Shown here piece by piece: positions 8,284-26,857 of a stretch of 64,000 bases of DNA; the stretch's first letter is position 1, and each line of letters starts with the position of its first letter. Made by a program: the position numbers and the translations under genes. The stretch is from a candidate division WOR-3 bacterium (GTDB taxonomy: Bacteria > Hydrothermota > Hydrothermia > UBA1063), in contig JBDRYS010000004.1 in the NCBI GenBank assembly GCA_039803545.1, positions 1-64,000 on the forward strand, read 5' to 3'. The notes beneath the pieces are model-generated. The model saw only the letters and a list, made by a program, of their open reading frames with translations, searched no databases and was not told the origin of the DNA.

Positions 8284-8706
8284 TTATCTAAGGGCTTTTA
8301 GCTGTCTCGGTGAGGTATAAATATCACGCCTACCTGGATTCCAAAAGTATGGTCCTTTTCTTATCCCACCTTTTTTAAACACCCAGTAAAAAGACACCTT
8401 AAACTTTCCGTGTCGAGTATTTATTTCCCATATTCTACGCCATGGATTGAACTCCTTAAACGCCATGCGTTCATAAGGATTTACGGTTAGTTTAGAATTT
8501 TCACCATAAAGAGCAGGATCTGAAATATACCACCATTTTTCACCATCGAAAACAATCTTGTTAGGGAAGTTGTGAAAGTTTTTATAACACCAATTGCAAA
8601 TTATACCCTTTATCTCCATTTGCTTACTTCTATGGGCAAATTTTCTGGATACCTCAATTATTTCCTCCTCATGCAAATACCTTCCACAAATATCGCATTT
8701 TTTCAT
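8284..8706 (-). CDS. Zinc-ribbon-like protein downstream of the integrase
   Basis: A 140-aa protein with an N-terminal zinc-binding pattern, CDICGRYL (CxxC) and CNWCYKNFH (CxxC) about 34 residues apart. A basic, aromatic-rich part follows (WWYISDPALYGENSK, WRRIWEINTRHGKFKVSFYWV) and an Arg/Lys-rich tail. I do not recognise a family. It is translationally coupled to the integrase gene by an ATGA overlap (8703-8706), so it may be a DNA-binding accessory such as an excisionase-like directionality factor or a regulator. That is inference from position and composition only. Confidence 0.6.
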   Translation of the reverse strand: MKKCDICGRYLHEEEIIEVSRKFAHRSKQMEIKGIICNWCYKNFHNFPNKIVFDGEKWWYISDPALYGENSKLTVNPYERMAFKEFNPWRRIWEINTRHGKFKVSFYWVFKKGGIRKGPYFWNPGRRDIYTSPRQLKALR

Positions 8707-10427
8707 TTTTCTTTCTCCTTTTCCAATGCCTTCTCTAACTCTTTTTGGAATGCCAGAGCCTCCTCATAAGTATTAAAAACATGTATAGTCCATTTACCGC
8801 CCTTATGCTCTCTTATCCTGTATTTCCTTCCAACTTTCTCAATTTTTGGAACCTTGCCTCTCTTTCTTTTCTTCTCTGGTTCTCCTTCTTCGCTTTTAGT
8901 CTCGACCTCTGGAAGAGGTATAATTTTCTCCTCCTCTATCTCTTGTCTGGTTATATCTTGTAACATTCCATTTAAGAAGTGGTTCATTGGATTTTGGCTG
9001 TATTCTTTACGTAGGGTAATATACCTACTCACAGAATATAACGACTTCCATCCACCAAGTAAAGCAATGATCCTATCTGAAAAGCCTAATTCGCTTGCAA
9101 TAGTGGCCCAGGTGTGTCTAAAGTCATGATAGTAAAAATTCTCAATATGGCACTTTTCTTTTAAAAATCTTTGGAACCACTCGGTTAGCATTCTCTTTTG
9201 GTAACTATTCTGGAAAGAAGGGAAGAGGATTTTATCATTTCCGCAATTCTGGAGTAGCCACATAGCAAACTCATAAGGAATATCAATTTTTCTCGTTTTT
9301 CCAGTTTTTGTAATGTCACTTGTAAAGTAGATCATCCCGTAATAACCTGTTTGGTCCCTGGCAATCCTTATGTGTTCTTTTCTTAATCGTAAAACTTCCT
9401 CTTTACGTGCGCCTGTGAATAATCCAATCAAGATAAAAGCCTTTTTCTCATTCATTCGTGGGCCCTTAGGGAGGTTAAAGATCTCTTTAAGCAGGGTAAA
9501 GATTTCCTCATAAGATAAAGCTCTTTCTCTAATTCTATCTTTAAGCCTTCTTTCTTTTAAAACAACATCAGCATAATTTACTCCTTCAACGTAACCAGTT
9601 CTTATTAGAAAATTCCATGCTGTACTGAGTCTTGAAAGTTCGCTTTTTATAGTAGATTCTGAAATGGGCTTTCCAGTTCTTTTATTGAAATCCTGAGTCC
9701 TCTTTGCGATATAATCTTCAATATGTTTTTTGGTAAGCTTGGAAAATTCTATATCTCCCCATTTCTCCAAAAAGGGCGTGACAAAGTATTGAAATTCTTT
9801 AACTTTTATTAAGTCTTGCTTACGTGAGTAAAGATACTCCTCATATATTTTAAATCCTTCTGATAGTTTTAGATCTTCAGATTTTACTATTATTCCTTTT
9901 TCCAGGTCACGGAGAAAATTTAAGGCTTCAAGATAAGTATCGAAGGTATAAATTACCCTTTTTCCATTTTCCCACTTTCTTATCCTGAATTTACGGCCAT
10001 GTTGCTCAATTTTAGGGATCCTCTTTTTATTCTCTTTTCCTTTGCTCGATTGTATGTTGTGTTGAGGTTCCCTTTCATTTTCTTGAGGTATATTTTCCTG
10101 GTCTTTAGTAGAATCAAAATTATTTTCATGTTCAATAAGTGATGCGAATTCTCTGGCTATGATCATTTTAATTGCAAAGTTTCTTGCCTCATCGTAAGAA
10201 TCAAAATATTTGTATATCCGTTTACGTTTTTCATCTTTTTTAGCAAGCTGGATATCTACCATATACTTTTTGCTTCTTCCCTTTAGCCTTGGAGTGGGAA
10301 TACGATACCTTTTAAATCCGATTTCTAAATAGTCACCGTTTATCTTGAATGTGTGTCCTTTAAACTCTATAATATTACCATGGATTATTATTTGGTCAAG
10401 AATGTTATTTATGATTTTGTCATTCAT
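8703..10427 (-). CDS. int: Tyrosine recombinase (integrase) with three arm-binding-like repeats
   Basis: A 574-aa phage-type integrase. The catalytic domain (about 300-475) has Arg341 (TGARKEEV), the beta-hairpin Lys region (TKTGKTRKIDI), His434-x-x-Arg437 (HDFRHTW), Trp460 in the His/Trp position and the nucleophile Tyr469 (SRYITL). A core-binding SAM-like domain is at about 190-285. Unusually there are three related 40-residue domains at about 50-92, 137-178 and 526-568; the last two share (I/V)PKIE-x-x-GRK(F/Y)RIR and (D/N)TY-x-EAL. They look like AP2-type arm-binding domains, and one lies after the catalytic domain. SD AAAGGAGG precedes the ATG. It should catalyse integration into, and excision from, tRNA-Thr. 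Confidence 0.93.
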   Translation of the reverse strand: MNDKIINNILDQIIIHGNIIEFKGHTFKINGDYLEIGFKRYRIPTPRLKGRSKKYMVDIQLAKKDEKRKRIYKYFDSYDEARNFAIKMIIAREFASLIEHENNFDSTKDQENIPQENEREPQHNIQSSKGKENKKRIPKIEQHGRKFRIRKWENGKRVIYTFDTYLEALNFLRDLEKGIIVKSEDLKLSEGFKIYEEYLYSRKQDLIKVKEFQYFVTPFLEKWGDIEFSKLTKKHIEDYIAKRTQDFNKRTGKPISESTIKSELSRLSTAWNFLIRTGYVEGVNYADVVLKERRLKDRIRERALSYEEIFTLLKEIFNLPKGPRMNEKKAFILIGLFTGARKEEVLRLRKEHIRIARDQTGYYGMIYFTSDITKTGKTRKIDIPYEFAMWLLQNCGNDKILFPSFQNSYQKRMLTEWFQRFLKEKCHIENFYYHDFRHTWATIASELGFSDRIIALLGGWKSLYSVSRYITLRKEYSQNPMNHFLNGMLQDITRQEIEEEKIIPLPEVETKSEEGEPEKKRKRGKVPKIEKVGRKYRIREHKGGKWTIHVFNTYEEALAFQKELEKALEKEKEK

Positions 10428-10704: not shown

Positions 10705-10739
10705 ACGCCCACGTAGCTCAGGCGGCAGAGCACTTCCTT
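10705..10739 (+). repeat. attR core (35-bp direct repeat)
   Basis: Identical to 5431-5465. It starts 2 nt before tRNA-Thr and ends just before the anticodon, so the crossover lies within the 5' half of the tRNA gene. Confidence 0.9.
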
Positions 10740-10779
10740 GGTAAGGAAGAGGTCACCGGTTCGAATCCGGTCGTGGGCT
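10707..10779 (+). tRNA. tRNA-Thr (GGU)
   Basis: A 73-nt cloverleaf. The acceptor GCCCACG (10707-10713) pairs with CGTGGGC (10772-10778). The D-arm starts TAGCTCAGG. The anticodon stem CTTCC/GGAAG encloses loop TTGGTAA with anticodon GGT (10740-10742). T-arm CCGGTTCGAATCCGG. It is the restored target of the integrated element: bases up to 10739 came with the element and the rest is the original chromosomal 3' half. Confidence 0.96.
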
Positions 10780-17488: not shown

Positions 17489-17590
17489 ATGTGTTTCCTC
17501 TGATTAAGACTTCTAAGTTCCTTGAATTTTTCAACGTTTAGAAGCTAAGTGCGAAAAAAAATTCGCAAAATTCTTAAATTCTAATGAAAT
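17489..17590. other. Spacer with a short A/T hairpin before the RiPP locus
   Basis: A 6-bp inverted repeat TGCGAA / TTCGCA (17550-17567, A-rich loop) lies after the epimerase. It may end the glycan transcript, but no T-run follows. Otherwise nothing is seen. Confidence 0.35.
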
Positions 17591-17619
17591 TTGTCCGCAT
17601 TAAATATTTTCCATATCAT
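17591..17619 (+). promoter_or_regulatory. Promoter for the precursor peptide gene
   Basis: -35 TTGTCC (17591-17596), a 17-bp spacer and -10 TATCAT (17614-17619). Unlike many genes here, the start codon is 27 nt beyond the -10 and is preceded by a perfect SD (AAAGGAGGT, 17631-17639), suggesting high translation. Confidence 0.5.
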
Positions 17620-17646
17620 TTTTGTACTAAAAAGGAGGTATCAAAA

Positions 17647-17781
17647 ATGCTTGTTGAAAAATCTACAATACAACGCGAAGTTACGGTAGATATAACATTT
17701 AATCCCGAAAAAGCTACCAAGGAAGGACAGTGTAGTGGTAGATACATCTGTGGCGGGCTGCAAAGGTGTGGTGTACAATAA
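17647..17781 (+). CDS. Putative RiPP precursor peptide 1 (Cys-rich, 44 aa)
   Basis: A 44-aa peptide with the strongest SD of the region (AAAGGAGGT, 7 nt before the ATG). The N-terminal 28 residues (MLVEKSTIQREVTV...) look like a charged leader. The C-terminal core is CSGRYICGGLQRC with Cys29, Cys35 and Cys41 in C-x5-C-x5-C spacing, ending GVQ. A 100-bp gap containing a 15-bp stem hairpin separates it from a radical SAM/SPASM maturase. Size, cysteines near the end, strong translation and position are those of ranthipeptide or sactipeptide-type precursors, whose cysteines are joined to neighbouring residues by thioether links. The product and its activity are unknown. Confidence 0.75.
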   Translation: MLVEKSTIQREVTVDITFNPEKATKEGQCSGRYICGGLQRCGVQ

Positions 17782-17825
17782 GCCCAAAAGTTATTACCCT
17801 AAAAATATTGCATTAAGCATTAAAT

Positions 17826-17862
17826 CTCATTTCCCTACTCGACTTTAGAGTAGGGAAATGAG
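17826..17862 (+). promoter_or_regulatory. Strong hairpin between precursor 1 and maturase 1
   Basis: CTCATTTCCCTACTC (17826-17840) and GAGTAGGGAAATGAG (17848-17862) form a perfect 15-bp stem with a 7-nt loop. An SD-like AAGGGAAGAGG follows immediately before the maturase ATG. It could stabilise the precursor mRNA or attenuate transcription so that little maturase is made relative to peptide. Confidence 0.75.
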
Positions 17863-17881
17863 GTAGAAAGGGAAGAGGATT

Positions 17882-19234
17882 ATGAACAAATTGAAATGGT
17901 CTCAATGGAATGTGTATTATCCGATTCTGGAAATGAAGAAAGTATTACTTTTGAATACACTGACTTCCGCTGGCATTGTTTTAGAAGAGAGTCAGTTTGA
18001 AACACTAAGAATAGGCAAGTACGACTCTTTACCTGATGATCTTTTTATTAAGTTAATAGAAAATGGTTTTCTTGTTTCTCCTCAAAGAGAAGAAGACGAA
18101 AATGCAACATATTGGAGATTTTATCACAATGTAAAGTACCGTTCAGTGTTTGGGACTTTTCATTTGGTCGTAATTCCGACTTACAAGTGTAATTTTAGTT
18201 GTACGTATTGTTTTGAAGATAATCATAAGTTGGAGAAAACCGAGATAATAATGGATCCCCAGTTGCTCGTAAAGTGGATAGAGAAGTTCTGGAAGTCATA
18301 TAAATATAACGGACTTCACGTAGTATTTTACGGTGGAGAACCTTTGTATCGTAGGGAGCTGTTGGAGGATTACATTGGGCAATTAGAAGAGTGGTGCGGA
18401 AATCGCAGGGTTACGTTTTCTTTTTCAATTATCACAAACGGTTCTATTATAGAGCGTCAATTTCTCCTAAAAATGCTTAAGACCGGATTGAAGGAAATTC
18501 AGGTCACTATTGATGGAATTGAAAATATTCATGATGAAAGGAGGCCTTTTAAACATGGGGGACCGTCTTTCAGTATTGTTTATAGGAATTTGCTTGATAT
18601 TGTCAACTTACCTCTAAAAGTCATAATTAGAACTAATATTGACAGACATAATATTTCAACATTTGAGTTGTTTATTAATAAGTTGAAAACCGATGGGATT
18701 TTCTCAAAAGGAAATGTTTCTTTTATGCCTACATTGGTAGATCCTTCACCCTCAAAAACTGAGTGGTGTGAAAAGTATGTTCCCAAAAATCTAAATGAGA
18801 GGTTGAAAACTTTAGAGATAGTATGGGGAAGTATGGTAAAACTTATAGAGGATCCTAAATTTCTATTACGGTCCCACAAGTTAAGTTTCAGCCTGTGTGA
18901 CGCGAAAGTTGCTGATTCCTTAATTGTTGGTCCTGATGGAAGTATATATACCTGTTATTCTCTTGTTGGAACAGATGTGGGGAAGGTTGGTAATATAGAG
19001 ACTGGTTTTAATTCACGATATGCCAAATTTTTATTCAGTATAGACGAAAAGGTGAGAAGATGTTTAGAGGAAAAGTGTCCATTTGTTCCTATATGTAATG
19101 GAGGATGTTTTTATCAATCTTATATTGAAAGTGGGAATCCTTTTCAAAGGGTTTGTCCGAGAAACTTTTATGAGAAAATTTGGTTGCCTGTAAAGGCGAA
19201 AATATATCAAAAGTTTATGCAAAATTCTGATTGA
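17882..19234 (+). CDS. Radical SAM/SPASM peptide maturase 1
   Basis: A 450-aa radical SAM enzyme with a complete SPASM domain. Residues 1-95 look like the winged-helix peptide-recognition region seen in peptide maturases (VLLLNTLTSAGIVLEE ... LIENGFLVS). The radical SAM motif is CNFSCTYCF (CxxxCxxC, about 104-110), followed by FYGGEPL and TNGS. The SPASM ligands are C-x13-G-x4-C (from SLCDAKV to SIYTC), then CLEEKCPFVPICNGGC and a final Cys (RVCPRN), enough for two auxiliary [4Fe-4S] clusters. Such enzymes install thioether or carbon-carbon links in ribosomal peptides. The 44-aa Cys-rich peptide upstream is the obvious substrate. Confidence 0.9.
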   Translation: MNKLKWSQWNVYYPILEMKKVLLLNTLTSAGIVLEESQFETLRIGKYDSLPDDLFIKLIENGFLVSPQREEDENATYWRFYHNVKYRSVFGTFHLVVIPTYKCNFSCTYCFEDNHKLEKTEIIMDPQLLVKWIEKFWKSYKYNGLHVVFYGGEPLYRRELLEDYIGQLEEWCGNRRVTFSFSIITNGSIIERQFLLKMLKTGLKEIQVTIDGIENIHDERRPFKHGGPSFSIVYRNLLDIVNLPLKVIIRTNIDRHNISTFELFINKLKTDGIFSKGNVSFMPTLVDPSPSKTEWCEKYVPKNLNERLKTLEIVWGSMVKLIEDPKFLLRSHKLSFSLCDAKVADSLIVGPDGSIYTCYSLVGTDVGKVGNIETGFNSRYAKFLFSIDEKVRRCLEEKCPFVPICNGGCFYQSYIESGNPFQRVCPRNFYEKIWLPVKAKIYQKFMQNSD

Positions 19235-19259
19235 GTGGGTGAAGAGCGGATGATATAAT
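19231..19259 (+). promoter_or_regulatory. Leaderless promoter of the RiPP ABC exporter
   Basis: -35 TTGAGT (19231-19236), exactly 17 bp, -10 TATAAT (19254-19259), then 6 nt to the ATG at 19266. It overlaps the stop of maturase 1. No SD is present. Confidence 0.7.
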
Positions 19260-19265
19260 TTTGAT

Positions 19266-20204
19266 ATGAGAGACGTCTTACTTGAAATAAGGAATCTCAC
19301 TAAGATTTTCAGAAGTGGGAAGAAGGAGATTATAGCAAACAATAATGTTTCCTTCAATGTTTACGAAGGAGAAATTTTGGGAATATTGGGACCTAACGGT
19401 GCAGGGAAAACTACTTTGATTAAGCAGATTGCAACTCTTTTGATTCCTGATTCGGGGGATATTTTGTATAAAGGGACGTCCATTGTTAAACATCCCGGGG
19501 TAATAAGAGGTCGTTTCTCATTCCTGCAGGAGGGAATGAGAAATGTATACCCGTATCTCACAGCTGAAGCTAATCTGCTTTATTTTGCCTATTTAAACCA
19601 CATCCCTGCAGGAGTTGCAAAAAAGAAAAGTGAAGAATTGTTGAAAAGAATGGGTTTATACGAAGTAAAAGATAACTATGTTTACACTTTCTCATCGGGG
19701 ATGAACAAGAAACTTGCAATTGCTACCTGCCTCATAAATGAACCAGAAATAGTGTTTCTTGATGAGCCATTTTCGGGACTGGATTTGATAGCTTCTATAG
19801 AGCTCATGGATTTTTTGAAATCCTTAGTGACTGAGAGTGGAAAGACCTTTCTCATTGCAGATCACAGACTGGATTTTATTGAGAAAGTTGCGAATAGAGT
19901 ATTATGGATTAAGGATGGGAGTGTGGTTATGGAAGGAAGCACAGTTGAGATGAAAACTATTCGGAGAGAAAAAGAGTTTATTGTTTATTTACAAAATTCC
20001 CTTGAGGCACAAAATGCCTTAAAAGAAAGGGGTGTGGAGTTCCAAGTTCTGTCGGATGAGGTATTGAAGGTTGAAGTCTCGCTAAGTCACAAAGATTACT
20101 TATCTTTCATTATTTCTAACTTTGAAGTATTGAACATAGAGAAAAAAGACCTGGATTTCGAGGCAATTTTTAAGGAGTTGTACTCCCATGCTAAAAACAA
20201 TTGA
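19266..20204 (+). CDS. ABC transporter ATP-binding protein (RiPP locus)
   Basis: A 312-aa ABC ATPase. Walker A is GPNGAGKTTLI, the signature is FSSGMNKKLAIA (a divergent LSGGQ), Walker B is IVFLDEPFSGLD, and the switch His lies in IADHRLDF. The C-terminal 80 residues are an extra mixed domain typical of bacteriocin or antibiotic exporter ATPases (CcmA/COG1131). It overlaps the permease gene by 17 bp and has its own promoter overlapping the end of maturase 1. Exporting the modified peptide, or giving self-protection, is inferred from location between the two maturases. Confidence 0.88.
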   Translation: MRDVLLEIRNLTKIFRSGKKEIIANNNVSFNVYEGEILGILGPNGAGKTTLIKQIATLLIPDSGDILYKGTSIVKHPGVIRGRFSFLQEGMRNVYPYLTAEANLLYFAYLNHIPAGVAKKKSEELLKRMGLYEVKDNYVYTFSSGMNKKLAIATCLINEPEIVFLDEPFSGLDLIASIELMDFLKSLVTESGKTFLIADHRLDFIEKVANRVLWIKDGSVVMEGSTVEMKTIRREKEFIVYLQNSLEAQNALKERGVEFQVLSDEVLKVEVSLSHKDYLSFIISNFEVLNIEKKDLDFEAIFKELYSHAKNN

Positions 20205-20967
20205 GGCGGAAGCGCTTAAGTTCTACTATGATGTAAAGCGATATTTGTTCAATTACTTAGTTGGGATTGTTTCCACTACTATCTTTCTAAGCGGTATTTA
20301 TTATGGACTCAGGTTACTGTATGTCCGCGCAGGAGAAGAGACCGCTTTTGTGGGATTGCTTTTATGGCTCTTTTCTTCCTCTGCAATATCTGGTTTAACC
20401 GATATTTTAGCGGAGGAACGATATCTCGGGACATTGGAAAGGATATCAGTGACAAAATCTCCCTTTATTTCAATAGTTGTTTCAAGACTGATAGTTAATT
20501 TTCTGTTTGGGCTATTACAGTTTTTTATTATCGGTAGTATCCTTTACCTCTTGTTTCGGCCTAATTTAGCACCTTTGTTCCCGTCTTCGAAAGTCTTCTT
20601 TATGCAACTTGTCGTTTCGGTTTTTTTGCTTCTCTCTCTTTATGGTTTTGGGTTCTTTATTGGCTCATTAAGTTTAATTTTTAAACGGGTAGGTGCGTTT
20701 AGCTCTGTGCTGGAATATCTTATTTTATTTTTCTCAGGGATTGTAATACCATGGGAGAAAATTCCGTTTTTCCTGCGAGTTTTTGCTAATTTTTTACCTA
20801 TGACATGGGGAATAAGAACGCTCATTTTAATAAAAATGGGAGTACCTTTCTTGTTTAGCTTTCTTAATTGTATTTTGTACTCACTTGTAGTTGTGTTGGT
20901 TGGCATTATAACCTTTCACTGCGCTGTTATCATTGTCAAAAGGAGAGGGGAATACGCCTTCTTCTGA
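20188..20967 (+). CDS. ABC-2 type permease (RiPP locus)
   Basis: A 259-aa membrane protein with about six hydrophobic segments (YLFNYLVGIVSTTIFLSGIYY, FVGLLLWLFSSSAISGL, LIVNFLFGLLQFFIIGSILYLL, LVVSVFLLLSLYGFGFFIG, VLEYLILFFSGIVIPW, CILYSLVVVLVGIITF). The conserved amphipathic motif of ABC-2 permeases (ILAEERYLGTLERISVTKSP) follows the second segment, and GIVIPWEKIPFFLRVFANFLP is the typical fifth-helix region. It pairs with the ATPase just upstream to form a homodimeric exporter in the inner membrane. Confidence 0.87.
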   Translation: MLKTIEAEALKFYYDVKRYLFNYLVGIVSTTIFLSGIYYGLRLLYVRAGEETAFVGLLLWLFSSSAISGLTDILAEERYLGTLERISVTKSPFISIVVSRLIVNFLFGLLQFFIIGSILYLLFRPNLAPLFPSSKVFFMQLVVSVFLLLSLYGFGFFIGSLSLIFKRVGAFSSVLEYLILFFSGIVIPWEKIPFFLRVFANFLPMTWGIRTLILIKMGVPFLFSFLNCILYSLVVVLVGIITFHCAVIIVKRRGEYAFF

Positions 20968-20981
20968 CAAATAAGATACCG

Positions 20982-21095
20982 TTGCTGTTCGAAGTAATTT
21001 ATATTCTTAGTGAAAGGTCAAGTGTGAAAAGTTTTTCGCAAGCAACGGTAGCCGAAAGGTGCTGTGAGAGAAGTCAGCGGTGTCCAAATGAGTAA
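20982..21095 (+). CDS. Putative RiPP precursor peptide 2 (Cys-rich, 37 or 23 aa)
   Basis: A short frame between the permease and maturase 2, ending at TAA 21093-21095. From TTG 20982 it gives 37 aa beginning MLFE (precursor 1 begins MLVE). From GTG 21024, which has an SD-like AAAGG 6 nt upstream, it gives 23 aa. The end is ATVAERCCERSQRCPNE. Compared with precursor 1 (ATKEGQC...CGGLQRCGVQ) it keeps AT-x4-C and C-x3-QRC, lacking only the five residues between the first two cysteines. It is followed by a 13-bp hairpin and then maturase 2, the same layout as copy 1. Function rests on this parallel alone; the start is uncertain. Confidence 0.5.
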   Translation: MLFEVIYILSERSSVKSFSQATVAERCCERSQRCPNE

Positions 21096-21100
21096 AGTTC

Positions 21101-21131
21101 TGAGGGGCGTCGCTGAAGGCGACGCCCCTCA
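21101..21131 (+). promoter_or_regulatory. Strong GC-rich hairpin between precursor 2 and maturase 2
   Basis: TGAGGGGCGTCGC (21101-21113) and GCGACGCCCCTCA (21119-21131) form a 13-bp stem with a 5-nt loop. The SD AAAGGAG and a T-run follow, then the maturase ATG at 21149. It corresponds in place to the hairpin before maturase 1 but shares no sequence with it, so the structure rather than the sequence seems to matter. Confidence 0.75.
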
Positions 21132-21148
21132 CAAAGGAGTTTTTTCAT

Positions 21149-22366
21149 ATGGAGAGATCATATAAGGTTTCAAAATACAACCTGTATAGGTACAATTACG
21201 TTTATAACCTGAGACAAAGGAGTCTCTTAAGGGTAAATGATTCAATTCTCAAAGCTCTTCAGAATAATGAGCTTGAAAATATTCCACCACAAGTAATGAA
21301 GCTGCTTCTTACTGCAGGAATTGTAGTCGAAGGGATTGATGAAGTGAAGCTTCTGGAATTCTGGCTTTCACTTAAGAGCTTTAATACCAACTCTTTGAGT
21401 GTTGCCTATATCCCCAACTACCATTGTAACTTCAGATGTACTTATTGTTATGCTCAATCAGTGCGTGATATTAAGAGACAGGAAAGTGAGAATGTTAATG
21501 CGGACTTTCTGAAATGGATTGAGAATCTTTTTGCTCTCGCTGAACCCCGGAGTTTTGAAATTACATTTCATGGAGGAGAACCTTTACTTTCAAAACAGGA
21601 AATTTTGTTTCTTTGCAAAAGTATTACTGAACTCTGTCAAAAACATAGCGTAAGGTTAAAGGATATTTCCTTCGTTACCAATGGGAGCTTGCTTGATAAG
21701 GGTTTTGTTGAAGAAGTTTTACGTCTTGGAATTACCTGTAGAGCCTTGGTGACTCTTGATGGCACTGAGAATATTCACAATAGACGCAGGTTTGATATTA
21801 AAGGTAAGGGGACTTTTTCGCTAATAGTTGATAATGTGATTCTGGCCCTCAATCTCGGGATGTTTGTAACAGTAGGTTTTAATTACGACAGGCAAAACTA
21901 TACTGATATCCCTTACTTTTTAGATTTTCTTGTTGAAAAAGGGTTTGATAAGAGACCCAACTTTCAGTTGATATTTGGGGCAGTGAGAAAGGGCTTAGAC
22001 CAGGAGAGCGTAGAACATTTCAAAAAATTCGAAATGGGTCAGGTGGAATCAGCAAAAGTCTTAATGTGGGCTTATGGCTCGATTTATGAACCTCTTGAGC
22101 TCCTAATGCAGAGGTCTGCAGACTTTGTTCTACCGTATCATTGGGAAAAGTATCCTCTTTGTAAAGAATGTGTGTATCTGCCGGTTTGCCTTGGGGGTTG
22201 CTTTGAGCAGGCTTTTATAAGGAAAAAGAAGTTCTACTGTAGAAAACGATACTTTGAGAATCTTCTCCCGGATCTCATTGATCTCACAGTAAGGCTCTAT
22301 GGAGAGCATCCGAAGCTGACTCAAGGTCAGAAACTTGAACATATTTTTGGAATTGAGCAAATTTAA
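21149..22366 (+). CDS. Radical SAM peptide maturase 2 with reduced SPASM domain
   Basis: A 405-aa paralogue of maturase 1. The N-terminal 85 residues are winged-helix-like (LLRVNDSILKALQNNEL ... LLLTAGIVVEG). The radical SAM motif is CNFRCTYCY (about 93-99), with FHGGEPLL and TNGS. The C-terminal cysteines are LCKECVYLPVCLGGCF (C-x2-C-x5-C-x3-C) and a last Cys in FYCRKR. The first SPASM half, C-x9-15-G-x4-C, is absent: residues about 280-330 hold no cysteine. It may therefore carry one fully ligated auxiliary cluster instead of two. SD AAAGGAG lies before the ATG. The probable substrate is the short peptide just upstream. Confidence 0.88.
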   Translation: MERSYKVSKYNLYRYNYVYNLRQRSLLRVNDSILKALQNNELENIPPQVMKLLLTAGIVVEGIDEVKLLEFWLSLKSFNTNSLSVAYIPNYHCNFRCTYCYAQSVRDIKRQESENVNADFLKWIENLFALAEPRSFEITFHGGEPLLSKQEILFLCKSITELCQKHSVRLKDISFVTNGSLLDKGFVEEVLRLGITCRALVTLDGTENIHNRRRFDIKGKGTFSLIVDNVILALNLGMFVTVGFNYDRQNYTDIPYFLDFLVEKGFDKRPNFQLIFGAVRKGLDQESVEHFKKFEMGQVESAKVLMWAYGSIYEPLELLMQRSADFVLPYHWEKYPLCKECVYLPVCLGGCFEQAFIRKKKFYCRKRYFENLLPDLIDLTVRLYGEHPKLTQGQKLEHIFGIEQI

Positions 22367-22416
22367 AATGAATGCGAGTCAAACAGGCTTTAAAATCTTA
22401 CTTTTAATGTGAGGTT

Positions 22417-23409
22417 ATGAGTAGTCCAATTGTTATAAATAGCCTGAGAAAAGTATATAAAAGACACCTGAGAGAGCCAGGTATAAAGGGTATATTGCGG
22501 GGTATTTTTGCTCGTGAATACATAGAAGTTGAAGCACTAAGGGGAATATCCTTTGAGATTTCCTCGGGTGAATTTGTGGGATATATAGGTCCCAATGGTG
22601 CTGGCAAAACTACCACTATGAAGATCCTCTCCGGAATTTTGTACCCTACCAGCGGAGAGGTTCGGGTTCTCGGATACTTTCCACCTGATAGGAACCCCGA
22701 TTTTTTGAAAAGAATTTCCTTTATTATGGGGCAAAAAACCCAGCTCTGGTGGGATTTGCCTGCTATGGATTCCTTTATTTTACTTAAAAAGATTTACGAA
22801 ATTCCCGATCGTGAATTCTTTAAGGAGGTTAACAACTTAGCGGAGCTGTTAAATGTTGCGGACCTTTTGAAAGTGCCGTTACGGAAGCTTTCTCTTGGCG
22901 AGAGGATGAAAATGGAGCTCATAGCTGGCTTGCTTCATGGGCCTGAAGTGATATTCCTTGATGAGCCTACCATTGGCCTTGACTTTATGTCACAGGAAAA
23001 GATTCATGAGTTTTTGAAATATTATAATGAGGAGAAGGGAAAGACAATTATTTTAACCAGCCATTATGTGCGGGACATCGAAAAACTTTGCCGGCGCATA
23101 ATTTTTATCCACAAGGGCCAGGTTTACTATGACGGAGATAGAGAATCTTTTATTGAGAAATTTACAAAAAAACGCGTAATAGTGGCAAAGTTCAGAAACA
23201 GGCCACCTGACTCTCTCAATAGGTTAGGAAAGGTAATGGGAGTAGAGGATAACGAGGTTCGCCTTGAGGTTGCAAAGGAGAAGTTGCAGGATGTCCTTCA
23301 AGAAATTCTAAAGAATGCAGAAATTGAGGGCCTCTTTGTGGAAGAATTGTCCTTAGAGGATGCCTTAAAAGAAGTTTTTGAGGGTATTCAAAATGAAAAG
23401 GCTCAGTAA
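22417..23409 (+). CDS. ABC transporter ATP-binding protein, COG4586 type
   Basis: A 330-aa ATPase of the uncharacterised COG4586 group. It has the long N-terminal segment before Walker A (RKVYKRHLREPGIKGILRGIF...), Walker A GPNGAGKTTTMKIL, the family's FIMGQKTQLWWDLPAMDSF, signature LSLGERMKMELIAGL, Walker B VIFLDEPTIGLD and SHYVRDIEKLCRRIIF. COG4586 proteins always pair with COG4587 and COG3694 permeases, which follow here. Substrate unknown; export of lipid or polymer is assumed. It starts 51 nt after maturase 2 on the same strand, so it may share the RiPP transcript. A full second set of these three genes lies at 38.0-40.6 kb. Confidence 0.88.
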   Translation: MSSPIVINSLRKVYKRHLREPGIKGILRGIFAREYIEVEALRGISFEISSGEFVGYIGPNGAGKTTTMKILSGILYPTSGEVRVLGYFPPDRNPDFLKRISFIMGQKTQLWWDLPAMDSFILLKKIYEIPDREFFKEVNNLAELLNVADLLKVPLRKLSLGERMKMELIAGLLHGPEVIFLDEPTIGLDFMSQEKIHEFLKYYNEEKGKTIILTSHYVRDIEKLCRRIIFIHKGQVYYDGDRESFIEKFTKKRVIVAKFRNRPPDSLNRLGKVMGVEDNEVRLEVAKEKLQDVLQEILKNAEIEGLFVEELSLEDALKEVFEGIQNEKAQ

Positions 23410-24203
23410 GTACTTGCAGGTTGTTGTAAACACTATTGCAGAAAGTTCAGAATTCCGGTTTAATCACCTTTTGAGTTTTCTTGTAATTGCCCTTCCGCTG
23501 GTTTTTACTATGCTTTTGTGGAGGAAGGTGCTTGGAAAGGGCGGGCAGATTGGCGTTTTTGACCTTCAAAGAATAATCACTTACTACTTTCTCGTGGTGC
23601 TTTTTCAGGATATAACCTATCCTGGTCCCTTTTGGGAGATTATTGATCACATCAGGGATGGAGGACTTAACGTTTTTTTTGAGCAAGCCCATTAGTTATC
23701 CTGGGTATATTTTTGCCCTTAAACTGGGCATAAATATCCCGTATTTATTTTTATCCTTCCTGACGCTCTTTTTGCTCGGCATCTTTGCGGGTTTTAACAA
23801 ATACTTGGTTTTTCCGCCAAATATATTTTATTTTGTTCTTTTTTTAATTTCCTTTTTCTTAGCCGTAGTTTTGGGATTTACACTCTCTTTTATTTTCAGC
23901 GCTCTCACCTTTTGGCTTGAGGAGGGCAGAGGAATTGAGGTTTTCTTAGAGTTCTTAATTAGCCTCACCAGCGGAGTTATATTGCCCGTATCCCTTTATC
24001 CAGGGTTCCTAAAGACTTTATGTAATTTGTTGCCTTTTAGGTACATTTTGAACTTTCCCGTTGAAGTCTACTTAGGTTTAGCAAAGGGCAGGGCACTTTA
24101 CCTTGGCTTTTTGGCTCAGGCGGGCTGGACATTGATTGTCTTGCTTCTTTTGAAATTTATATGGAACGAAGGGCTCAAGAGATATGAGGCGGTGGGCGCT
24201 TAG
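23393..24203 (+). CDS. ABC permease, COG4587 type, frameshifted at a T8 run
   Basis: Six-helix ABC-2 like permease split by one frameshift. The first frame (ATG 23393, overlapping the ATPase end) runs to TAG 23693-23695. The continuation (LSKPISYPGYIFALKLG... to 24203) is in the +1 frame. The join is at eight T residues, 23673-23680; seven would give NVFLSKPISYPG, matching the paralogue at 38804-39577 (IIHFLSKPVNFLKSW). The full product would be about 270 aa. Both halves keep good codon use and all expected helices, so this is an error, a slippage site or a very recent mutation. Confidence 0.8.
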
Positions 24204-24996
24204 GGTAAATTATTATTTTTCCTTGTGGCGAGAATTCTTTTTGATGCAGATAAAAAGAGAAACTATTTTCAAGGGCAGTTTTCTCCTCGAGATTGTATCT
24301 TATTTAATGTGGTTTGTTTTCAACGTCTTCTTTTTCGGCATCATTCTCAGCTATAGGCGGTCTATTGGGGGATGGGGGCGTTATGAAGTTCTGACGCTGA
24401 TTTCTATTAACCAGTTGATTGTAGCCCTTTACGATACCTTCTTAGGCCCAAATTTGAGGAGGTTTCAGACCTATATTGAGAGGGGAGATTTTGACCTCTT
24501 TATTATTAAGCCCCTGGATTTGCAATTTTTTGTTTCTACAAGATTTATGGATTTAAAGCCTCTTTTTTCTACTCCTTTGGCCCTTCTTACATTAACCTAT
24601 GCCCTTTATAAGCGGGGCAGTTTGCCTGGATTAATGGAATTTACCCTGTTTTTAACTTGTTTTGTAATGGGTGTTCTAATCCGTTACGGCTTAGGTTTTT
24701 TTGTGATGTCTCTCTCCTTTTATTTCGTTAGGGTTTCTGCTCTTCATTCCCTCCAGAGAGAATTGCTCTCCTACGCTGGTTATCCTTACACCATTTATGA
24801 GAAGTTTGCAAAGGTGTTTTTCACCTTCATAGTGCCTGTTGCCTTAATTGCCAATTTGCCAGCGCAGGCCCTTTTGAAGCAGCCAGTAAAGCCAGAATTG
24901 GTTTTATACAGCTTTTTCTTTGCTTTAGTGATCCTCGTTTTTTCAAGACACTTCTTTTACCGCTCAATAAGGAGGTACGAAAGTGCTAGTAGCTAA
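24184..24996 (+). CDS. ABC permease, COG3694 type
   Basis: A 270-aa permease with about six hydrophobic segments and the family's N-terminal FLMQIKRETIFKGSFLLEIVSYLMWFVFNVFFF and central FQTYIERGDFDLFIIKPLDLQFFVSTRF. It overlaps the preceding permease by 20 bp. With the COG4586 ATPase and COG4587 permease it completes a heteromeric exporter of unknown substrate in the inner membrane. Its 3' end overlaps the outer-membrane barrel gene. Confidence 0.85.
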   Translation: MRRWALRVNYYFSLWREFFLMQIKRETIFKGSFLLEIVSYLMWFVFNVFFFGIILSYRRSIGGWGRYEVLTLISINQLIVALYDTFLGPNLRRFQTYIERGDFDLFIIKPLDLQFFVSTRFMDLKPLFSTPLALLTLTYALYKRGSLPGLMEFTLFLTCFVMGVLIRYGLGFFVMSLSFYFVRVSALHSLQRELLSYAGYPYTIYEKFAKVFFTFIVPVALIANLPAQALLKQPVKPELVLYSFFFALVILVFSRHFFYRSIRRYESASS

Positions 24997-26857
24997 GATT
25001 TTTGGATATTTAATTCTCTCTCAGATGGTGAAAATCTTGCCTTATGAAAAGGAGTTTGTCTTTTATCCTTTTCGTGGATTGAGGCCGACTTATGAAGCCA
25101 ATATTGAAGTTTGTGTTTATGAAGATTCCTTTTCTGTAGAGTTTCAAACACCATCTTATGTTGTGGTTCGGAAGAGTTTAACGCGGGATAGTTTTGACCC
25201 GAATAGCGAGGCCTGTTTTTATCTCCTGGTAAAAACTCGTTCAAATACGGCAGAAGGTTACCTTTTTGCGGTTAATGCCAACAATATTCAGCTTGATGGG
25301 CTTGTCCACAGTTATGATAACATTGTTACATCCTGGGATGAAGTGTGGAGTTCAAAGGTTGAGGTCAAGGATTCCTTGTGGAATGTGATAATTACAATTC
25401 CCTTTAAGGTATTCCGTGAAAATTTTGATTCCCTTTATTTTTACTTCACCTGGACTGTTTTTACGCCAAGTGGAATAGAGATTGTGAGTTCATATCCAAT
25501 ACCTGAGGGATACAGCCGATTTGACCTCAGATTTGCTGACTTTTCTTTTCCTGCTTTGAAGAAAAGGTTTGACAGACTCTTTTCCTTTACGCCATACCTT
25601 GCAGTGATTCGAGAAAATTCTATGACTACAAAGATTGGAGCAGAGTTGAAGCTGGTAAAGGGCGATATGACCCTCCAATCGACTATAAACCCGGAGAGAT
25701 ATTCCATTGAAGGAGACATAGACCAGTTTAACTTAAAAAGAAGGCGGAGTATAAAGCTTGAAGAAAAGAGGCCCTTCTTCACAGAGGGACTTGACCTCTG
25801 GAAAATGCCCTTTGAGGCCTTTTATTCGAGGAGTATCGGTGACTTTATTGGTGGGGTAAAGCTGGGATTGAATAAAAATACCTTTAGGTTTCAAGGCCTT
25901 ATTTTGTACGAGGATTCGGTGATTTCACATTACAGTCCATCTCGTATTTTAACCGCTTCTGTTGCGAGTTATAGGCCCTCAAAGGCCTTTGAGAACAGGT
26001 TGTTCTTTATAACAAAGGGGGATACCGTAGGTGCGGGAGTTAATGCCAATTTCTTTTTGCCTTATGGCTTTAAAGTAAAGACACAATTCACAAGGGCTCA
26101 GGGTAATGATTTTTACTTGGAAGTCAAAAGGTTTTCTAAAACGGGTTTCTGGGTCTCCTCCGGTGCCGAGAGGCTGGATGCTAATTTTAATTTACCAACG
26201 GCCTATATTTCTTACTTTGAAAATACCATTTCCTATTGGATATTCTCAGGTATAACAAAAACCTTTGAAAGGAAATATTTTACTGAAGCGAGTCTCTCCT
26301 TCGGCTATACCTATTCCAACTTTTTAGATGGAGCGCCTTTTGAAAGGTTTGGGAATGTTTATGCGACGGTATATCCCATAAGCAGTGTTGAACTTACCTT
26401 TGGAGTGGAACCGATGAAGACCTTTTACGAGGGGGTATATTACAACAACATCAATTATATAATCTCGACTGCCTTAGGAGTTTCAAAACCTTCTACACTC
26501 TATTTTGAGTACATCTGGGGCGAAAACTACGGGAACAATCTAAGGTTTTTGAACCTGTGTGGCAACTTTTCTATTTCTGGGAAGCTTTACTGCGAAGGGG
26601 GTGCAGGTTTTGTTGAGGAAGGGCCATCAGAGGACCAGAGAGTTTATTTAATGGGGTCTTATTCTCCCATGGAGAGGGTTTATTTGCGTTTCTTTTCCCA
26701 GAGGAGCACTCTGAGTGATAGAACGGACTTAAATTTGATGTTCCAGTATGAATTCTTTGCAGGCAGCAACATTTTTGTGGTTATTAACAGAACGGTAAGA
26801 AGCGGGCAGGTTTCTACCCCTGTTATGTTGAAAGTGGCCTACGAGCTGAGATTTTAG
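24983..26857 (+). CDS. DUF5916-like outer-membrane beta-barrel protein
   Basis: A 624-aa protein. A hydrophobic N-terminus may serve as signal peptide. Residues about 30-180 look like a carbohydrate-binding family 9-type sandwich (EANIEVCVYEDSFSVEFQ ... WNVIITIPFKVFRENFDSLYFYFTW). The DUF5916 hallmark follows: TINPERYSIEGDIDQFNL, then KLEEKRPFFTEGLDLW. The rest is a long run of alternating beta strands ending in VAYELRF, as expected for an outer-membrane barrel with a C-terminal Phe. An SD (AAGGAGGT) precedes the GTG. Coupling to the COG4586 exporter genes suggests a trans-envelope partnership, for instance delivery of the same cargo to the cell surface. Confidence 0.8.
   Translation: MLVAKIFGYLILSQMVKILPYEKEFVFYPFRGLRPTYEANIEVCVYEDSFSVEFQTPSYVVVRKSLTRDSFDPNSEACFYLLVKTRSNTAEGYLFAVNANNIQLDGLVHSYDNIVTSWDEVWSSKVEVKDSLWNVIITIPFKVFRENFDSLYFYFTWTVFTPSGIEIVSSYPIPEGYSRFDLRFADFSFPALKKRFDRLFSFTPYLAVIRENSMTTKIGAELKLVKGDMTLQSTINPERYSIEGDIDQFNLKRRRSIKLEEKRPFFTEGLDLWKMPFEAFYSRSIGDFIGGVKLGLNKNTFRFQGLILYEDSVISHYSPSRILTASVASYRPSKAFENRLFFITKGDTVGAGVNANFFLPYGFKVKTQFTRAQGNDFYLEVKRFSKTGFWVSSGAERLDANFNLPTAYISYFENTISYWIFSGITKTFERKYFTEASLSFGYTYSNFLDGAPFERFGNVYATVYPISSVELTFGVEPMKTFYEGVYYNNINYIISTALGVSKPSTLYFEYIWGENYGNNLRFLNLCGNFSISGKLYCEGGAGFVEEGPSEDQRVYLMGSYSPMERVYLRFFSQRSTLSDRTDLNLMFQYEFFAGSNIFVVINRTVRSGQVSTPVMLKVAYELRF

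Follow-up and report, generated by a model that had tools for sequence, protein, structure and literature searches.

In the biosynthesis of ribosomally synthesised and post-translationally modified peptides (RiPPs), RiPP recognition element (RRE) domains bind the leaders of the precursors, and the SPASM clusters of thioether synthases have redox and substrate roles; CteB is such a thioether maturase (PMC8326336). The ranthipeptide and SCIFF maturases (CteB, ScfB, PapB) combine an RRE, a radical S-adenosylmethionine (SAM) domain and a SPASM domain, and a short Cys-rich precursor is encoded directly 5′ of them. The Cys thioether is made to an alpha carbon in sactipeptides and to a non-alpha carbon in ranthipeptides. 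In the thuricin CD locus two small precursors are accompanied by two radical SAM enzymes, TrnC and TrnD, which act as one complex with radical activity needed in only one of them (PMC12093266). Export in Gram-negative clusters can involve a peptidase-containing ATP-binding cassette (ABC) transporter (PCAT), a fusion protein and a TolC-like protein (PMC10352776). Here a RiPP locus with two radical SAM/SPASM genes, Mat1 and Mat2, is described from a candidate division WOR-3 bacterium. It lies in a stretch of 64,000 nucleotides (the window; contig JBDRYS010000004.1 of assembly GCA_039803545.1, C4:1-64000), part of a draft genome of 1.67 Mb in 4 contigs that is 99% complete. The genes and stem-loops of this locus are on the forward strand.

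Cassette 1 of the window consists of the precursor P1, Mat1, an ABC ATPase and an ABC-2 permease. Cassette 2 consists of the precursor P2, Mat2, a second ATPase, two PF06182 permeases and a DUF5916-type protein. Judged by the maturase phylogeny and by their occurrence in relatives, the Mat1 and Mat2 loci are two unrelated RiPP cassettes that abut, not one two-maturase pathway. In the tree the maturases of P1 and P2 fall into two distinct clades (bootstrap 99-100%) that differ in both precursor type and transporter type. We consider it probable that these are two unrelated neighbours of which only cassette 1 is intact, that Mat1 cross-links P1, and that the product leaves the cell by way of the ABC transporter and the DUF5916-type protein. 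Genomes in the comparison carry G labels, with G000 being the window's own genome, G003 a member of the same genus and G130 a member of a different family.

P1 (17647..17781) starts with an ATG at 17647 behind a Shine-Dalgarno sequence (AAGGAGGT, 17632..17639) and encodes a 44-aa peptide (MLVEKSTIQREVTVDITFNPEKATKEGQCSGRYICGGLQRCGVQ) whose C-terminal core, CSGRYICGGLQRCGVQ, has the form C-x5-C-x5-C. An earlier sequence-only reading of this DNA had described the peptide in the same way, perfect Shine-Dalgarno included. In G003 a peptide (MIIEKATFKPELSSIVVKVAAGIEACFVRYECGGKQRCGIR) with its own Shine-Dalgarno sequence occupies the equivalent position ahead of a Mat1 homologue of 41% identity. A profile of the window and G003 peptides, run across 147 WOR-3 genomes, found a third (MVIENAYLKIDQLGLGTKVVFNQLCPSRMVCGGKQRCAVP, E 0.0025) directly 5′ of the Mat1 homologue in G130, which is likewise 41% identical. 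P1-type precursors with an SD-like sequence thus adjoin the maturase in three genomes (G000, G003, G130) from two families. The three cysteines, their spacing, the CGG-x-QRC block and the Arg three residues past the first Cys are invariant, which gives a shared core of C-x5-C-G-G-x-Q-R-C. Since this core recurs directly 5′ of Mat1 homologues in both relatives, conservation indicates that P1 is more than a chance open reading frame (ORF). A small Cys peptide kept beside homologous maturases was also the sequence-only reading's own test for a radical SAM RiPP system, and on that count its assignment held up.

Neither P1 nor P2 matched any NCBIfam model. Weak P1 and P2 profile matches were mostly chance hits, with a maturase in 0 of the 14 regions inspected, and at the G099 match (0.0038) there is no P1 cassette. 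Besides the G130 peptide, the match borne out by its locus was that of P2 in G085 (5e-7). DNA-pattern matches to the P1 core in G011 and G134 were discarded, as unrelated genes surround them.

Mat1 (17882..19234, PF04055) is a predicted RRE-type radical SAM/SPASM peptide maturase of 450 aa, assigned by alignment, profiles and a structural model. Its CxxxCxxC motif is CNFSCTYC (CNFRCTYC in Mat2), and C103, C107 and C110 are invariant across 20 maturases. All seven SPASM cysteines are present (C339, C358, C394, C399, C405, C409 and C425). Residues 10-81 are predicted to run strand-strand-strand-helix-helix-helix, the order of an RRE, with a local pLDDT (predicted local distance difference test) of about 66-85 over residues 1-70. 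The winged-helix-like N-terminus that had been proposed for each maturase is therefore supported for Mat1. The two radical SAM proteins are different, as had been claimed, at about 24% identity. Mat1 homologues in G003 and G130, each with a P1-type peptide ahead of it, share 39-42% identity with Mat1, and the Mat1 profile scores above 800 bits only in G000, G003 and G130 (at most 241 elsewhere).

Against NCBIfam, the top families for Mat1 were the geopeptide maturases (TIGR04280, 185 bits, cut-off 400), CefB (NF038107, 176 bits, cut-off 600) and TIGR04463 (163 bits, cut-off 525), all matched nearly end to end with the N-terminal domain included. PapB (NF047865; 121 bits, cut-off 340) and SCIFF/ScfB (TIGR03974; 70 bits, cut-off 425) scored lower, and none of the maturase models listed scored Mat1 above its cut-off. 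Mat2 likewise stayed below the geopeptide cut-off of 400, at 156 bits. The family profile found CteB as its best match in the PDB (5wgg, E 1.5e-42), followed by sulfatase maturases and TigE (8vpo, E 5.6e-30, near full length), while a Foldseek search with the Mat1 model was led by TigE and CteB. The identity to TigE in the structural alignment is 14%, and TM-scores are low from poor domain placement in the Mat1 model. The maturases had their best scores against peptide-modifying SPASM enzymes, in line with the earlier expectation. The precursor also differs from those of the named families: P1 has three cysteines, unlike SCIFF peptides with six in 45 residues, it lacks the CX3D or CX3E motif of PapB ranthipeptides, and its cysteines are six apart, unlike the Cys-every-fifth pattern of CefB. 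By these profile and motif comparisons, cassette 1 probably works like the RRE-radical SAM-SPASM RiPPs and is not assignable to SCIFF, PapB, geopeptide or CefB. The sequence-only reading had recognised no named RiPP class in the core and the duplicated maturases; loci with two maturases do have a precedent in thuricin CD.

As had been noted, an ABC ATPase (19266..20204, PF00005) and an ABC-2 permease (20188..20967, PF01061) lie between the two maturases. The ATPase has a 51% orthologue in G130 and an ORF also in G003, and the permease has orthologues of 44% in G003 and 45% in G130. Both genomes show the full order P1-Mat1-ATPase-ABC-2 permease-DUF5916 protein, and Mat2 is not nearby. Cassette 1 of the window is intact.

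Cassette 2 is damaged in three places. The second mini-precursor of the sequence-only reading proved to be no more than the 3′ part of a gene (P2 remnant, 21036..21095, core ATVAERCCERSQRCPNE), and its profile match covers model positions 22-40 only. In relatives P2 is a peptide of 40 aa with its own Shine-Dalgarno sequence, encoded ahead of Mat2 (MNPIKITDWVEVISIGVPMSNATATVAERCCERSQRCPNE in G001, MSHINIKDWVEIICIGIPISNATATVAERCCERSQRCPNE in G002). When aligned with G001 and compared with G002, the window shows a deletion of about 145 bp, by which the Shine-Dalgarno sequence, the start codon and the greater part of the leader were lost and the core was left. Mat2 (21149..22366, PF04055) carries an in-frame deletion of 147 bp, corresponding to GLCTF...FKC in G001 and G002 and including the first two SPASM cysteines, which the sequence-only reading had missed; window Mat2 is probably inactive. 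Outside the deletion the Mat2 frame is open, and its dN/dS against G001 is 0.14.

The locus continues beyond 22366, where the sequence-only reading ended, to 26857 by Pfam; that reading therefore did not include the second transporter or the candidate outer-membrane protein. The cassette 2 ATPase (22417..23409, PF00005) has orthologues of 83% in G001, 57% in G005 and 50% in G085. Permease a (23378..24203, PF06182) is split into two ORFs by a 1-bp insertion that lengthens a run of T near 23670, and is a single ORF of 274 aa in G001 and G002. Permease b (24184..24996) also belongs to PF06182. P2-type precursors stand ahead of Mat2 homologues in G001, G002, G005 and G085. Mat1 is not intact in any of these four, and cassette 2 is intact in relatives without an intact cassette 1. 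In G005 and G085 the related peptide and Mat2 homologue are followed by an ATPase, two PF06182-like permeases and a DUF5916 protein, with an extra major facilitator superfamily (MFS) gene in G085.

The reverse lesions are found in relatives. G001 keeps about 130 bp of Mat1, and in G002 only remnants of the cassette 1 ATPase and permease remain, with stops; the DUF5916 gene of G002 is split. From these reciprocal remnants in the window, G001 and G002, the genus carried both cassettes in the past, and one of the two has since disappeared from individual lineages. When the window is compared with G001, nucleotide identity is 0.60-0.75 in the flanking genes, 0.88-0.95 over about 19300-22600, and after a drop 0.77-0.89 in the DUF5916 gene. 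A peak within the locus points to recent recombination there. In the maturase tree G003 groups with G130, from another family, and not with the window, which is consistent with horizontal movement of the cassette.

The DUF5916-type protein (24983..26857, PF19313) is a predicted outer-membrane beta-barrel of 624 aa that ends in Phe. Its strand alternation over residues 201-624 has a z of 2.8 (among ten window proteins, none of the others is above 0.4), and no internal transmembrane helix is predicted. Proteins of this type lie beside most maturases of this family, in about 20 of the cassettes retrieved, with three transporter architectures: an ATPase with an ABC-2 permease, an ATPase with two PF06182 permeases, and a fused ABC_membrane-ATPase. 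The Pfam DUF5916 match was obtained for 9 of 14 cassette proteins. Two of the three DUF5916 genes of the window genome lie beside maturases, the third in a separate conserved context. The protein may be an outer-membrane barrel that serves peptide export as a dedicated outer-membrane step. Like the described Gram-negative clusters, the locus has an ABC exporter and an outer-membrane candidate; unlike them, the candidate is of the DUF5916 type, no C39 peptidase domain was found on the ABC proteins scanned, and Pfam recognised no membrane fusion protein among the window's cassette genes.

Further loci share parts of this arrangement. The window genome has a third radical SAM/SPASM RiPP cassette (L004:5405-6980; C3:8404-9979 in its own genome) with two precursors (ending in CGCFLTRCDERAPKNQEQQ and CGCFLVQCRKDEV), a fused ABC exporter and a DUF5916 protein, and its CGCFL/CACFL peptide type also occurs in G002, G005, G007 and G027. 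Maturase loci L226 and L228 encode very similar peptides (ending in CYPGCCGSACFPIL and CHSGCCASSCFAIL); the L226 maturase sits between two 546-aa proteins with Por_Secre_tail sorting domains, possibly substrates or partners. Pairs of an ABC exporter and a DUF5916 gene with no obvious maturase nearby occur in L066, L068 and L069, and in L068 a small peptide (ending in WRPCENTCIACQTAIIII) is encoded upstream of the pair.

Two kinds of inverted repeat accompany the cassettes. An operator-like palindrome (TGCGAAAAAAAATTCGCA, 17550..17567) lies 79 bp 5′ of P1, and another (TGTGAAAAGTTTTTCGCA, 21023..21040) 5′ of the P2 remnant. Searched as an 18-bp motif with at most 2 mismatches to TGYGAAAANNTTTTCRCA, the palindrome is found 50-134 bp 5′ of the precursor in all G000 and G002 cassettes and of P2 in G001, and for each site no more than 1 in 500 shuffles gave an equal match. 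Outside G000, G001 and G002 the motif cannot be detected. Copies of the motif also occur elsewhere, mostly within genes, and no regulon is therefore claimed. The gap between P1 and Mat1 holds a stem-loop with a perfect 15-bp stem (17826..17862, z -6.7), and that between the P2 remnant and Mat2 another (21098..21134, z -7.2). Hairpins of unrelated sequence sit between precursor and maturase in most cassettes examined, with z from -3.5 to -7.2. For cassette 1 the equivalent hairpin reaches z -4.7 in G130 and a weaker -1.6 in G003; for cassette 2 hairpins occur in G001, G005 and G085. The hairpin of the C3 cassette is also weaker. Such hairpins would favour an excess of precursor.

Taken from comparative sequence evidence, the pathway that we infer runs as follows. 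P1 would be translated from its strong Shine-Dalgarno sequence and held in excess by the hairpin. The winged-helix RRE of Mat1 would bind the N-terminal leader, and the C-x5-C-G-G-x-Q-R-C core would be cross-linked by the radical SAM cluster together with the SPASM auxiliary clusters, the links most likely being thioethers formed by the three invariant cysteines. Export through the inner membrane would be the task of the ABC ATPase and ABC-2 permease; at the outer membrane the product would be carried or received by the DUF5916-type barrel, whose gene closes the operon. Cassette 2 may formerly have made a different peptide (core ending in ERCCERSQRCPNE) with Mat2 and its different ABC transporter. 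Thioether cross-linking of the three cysteines is favoured because CteB, which forms thioethers, is the closest solved relative of Mat1 by profile and one of the two closest by fold.

The main competitor retains cassette 1 and changes its chemistry: Mat1 could make a carbon-carbon or cyclophane cross-link at R-[YM], epimerise, or make another Cys-independent change. Cyclophane and other peptide maturases do score as distant NCBIfam relatives, and in the R-Y/R-M dipeptide the Arg is invariant alongside the cysteines. However, the three cysteines with their five-residue spacing are the most conserved feature of the core, the top families are maturases of Cys-rich peptides and the top structures include CteB, so a product of this kind seems unlikely, if well worth bearing in mind. 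That Mat1 acts on a non-peptide or large-protein substrate, with P1 as a coincidental ORF, is barely credible. Sulfatase and quinohaemoprotein maturases are among its distant matches, but their scores fall far under the cut-offs, Cys-rich peptides stand beside most maturase relatives, and P1 with its SD-like sequence is kept before Mat1 across two families.

The sequence-only reading had treated the duplicated maturases as one system. In a true two-maturase pathway Mat1 and Mat2 would act jointly on P1 and P2 in the manner of TrnC and TrnD, and the shortened Mat2 would serve as a helper subunit. The genes are neighbours in the window, the thuricin CD locus has a comparable content and tolerates one radical-inactive enzyme, and pseudo-radical SAM partners have been proposed for Bacteroidales clusters (PMC10352776). 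Yet in G003 and G130 there is no Mat2 near Mat1, and four genomes have Mat2 but no intact Mat1, each maturase with its own precursor, in a separate clade and with a separate transporter, and the start and leader of window P2 are gone. Joint action is thus highly improbable. The lesions of cassette 2 might instead be assembly or sequencing errors, with both cassettes active and two peptides exported. The genome is a draft, the permease a frameshift is a single T in a T run, and the rest of Mat2 is open, with the dN/dS given above. Two separate deletions within 1.1 kb, the larger exactly in frame, are not what such errors would be expected to leave, and the other cassette has decayed to a similar degree in relatives; error is an improbable explanation.

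Several observations weigh against our preferred reading of two cassettes with an active first one. Mat1 reaches less than half of the curated cut-off for every named peptide-maturase family at the top of its list, and its model is weak apart from the N-terminus and the core (mean pLDDT 57.8). The cassette encodes no leader protease. The nonsynonymous rise in Mat2 is small and non-significant (16 nonsynonymous and 17 synonymous changes, vs 9 and 19 in G001), so its decay would be recent. The AlphaFold model of the DUF5916 protein is unusable (pLDDT 31), so that the grounds for its proposed role are association and composition. In other families several maturase loci are without a DUF5916 gene, and further loci run off their contigs.

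Some other features of these genomes are recorded here. An S41 peptidase gene lies within another WOR-3 maturase cassette (L227:2642-3937) and is a candidate leader protease. Positions 1-590 of the window hold the 3′ part of a 16S rRNA gene; no 23S or 5S rRNA match was found in the 63 kb of the window that follow, and the rRNA genes of this genome are apparently not linked. A tyrosine recombinase/phage integrase-family gene (8703-10427) lies near a tRNA gene (10707-10779).

The kind of system is known; new here are the precursor families, which come from an uncultured phylum and have no NCBIfam model, and the unusual export partner. A literature search on WOR-3 and RiPPs yielded only three papers, each with a passing co-mention, and a search of a limited collection returned nothing on DUF5916, geopeptides or the Cys-every-fifth peptides. 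The apparent oddity of two maturases amounts to a natural experiment on adjacent cassettes, where the decay of one goes with an intact copy of the other. A wider proposal, more doubtful than not, is that in WOR-3 many different radical SAM RiPPs may rely on a dedicated DUF5916-type barrel for export or docking at the outer membrane, with no PCAT, fusion protein or TolC, and that the C-x5-CGG-x-QRC peptides may form a new thioether class within that system. Because DUF5916, a family without a known function, travels with the cassettes across several WOR-3 families, it gains a testable role in diderm peptide export.

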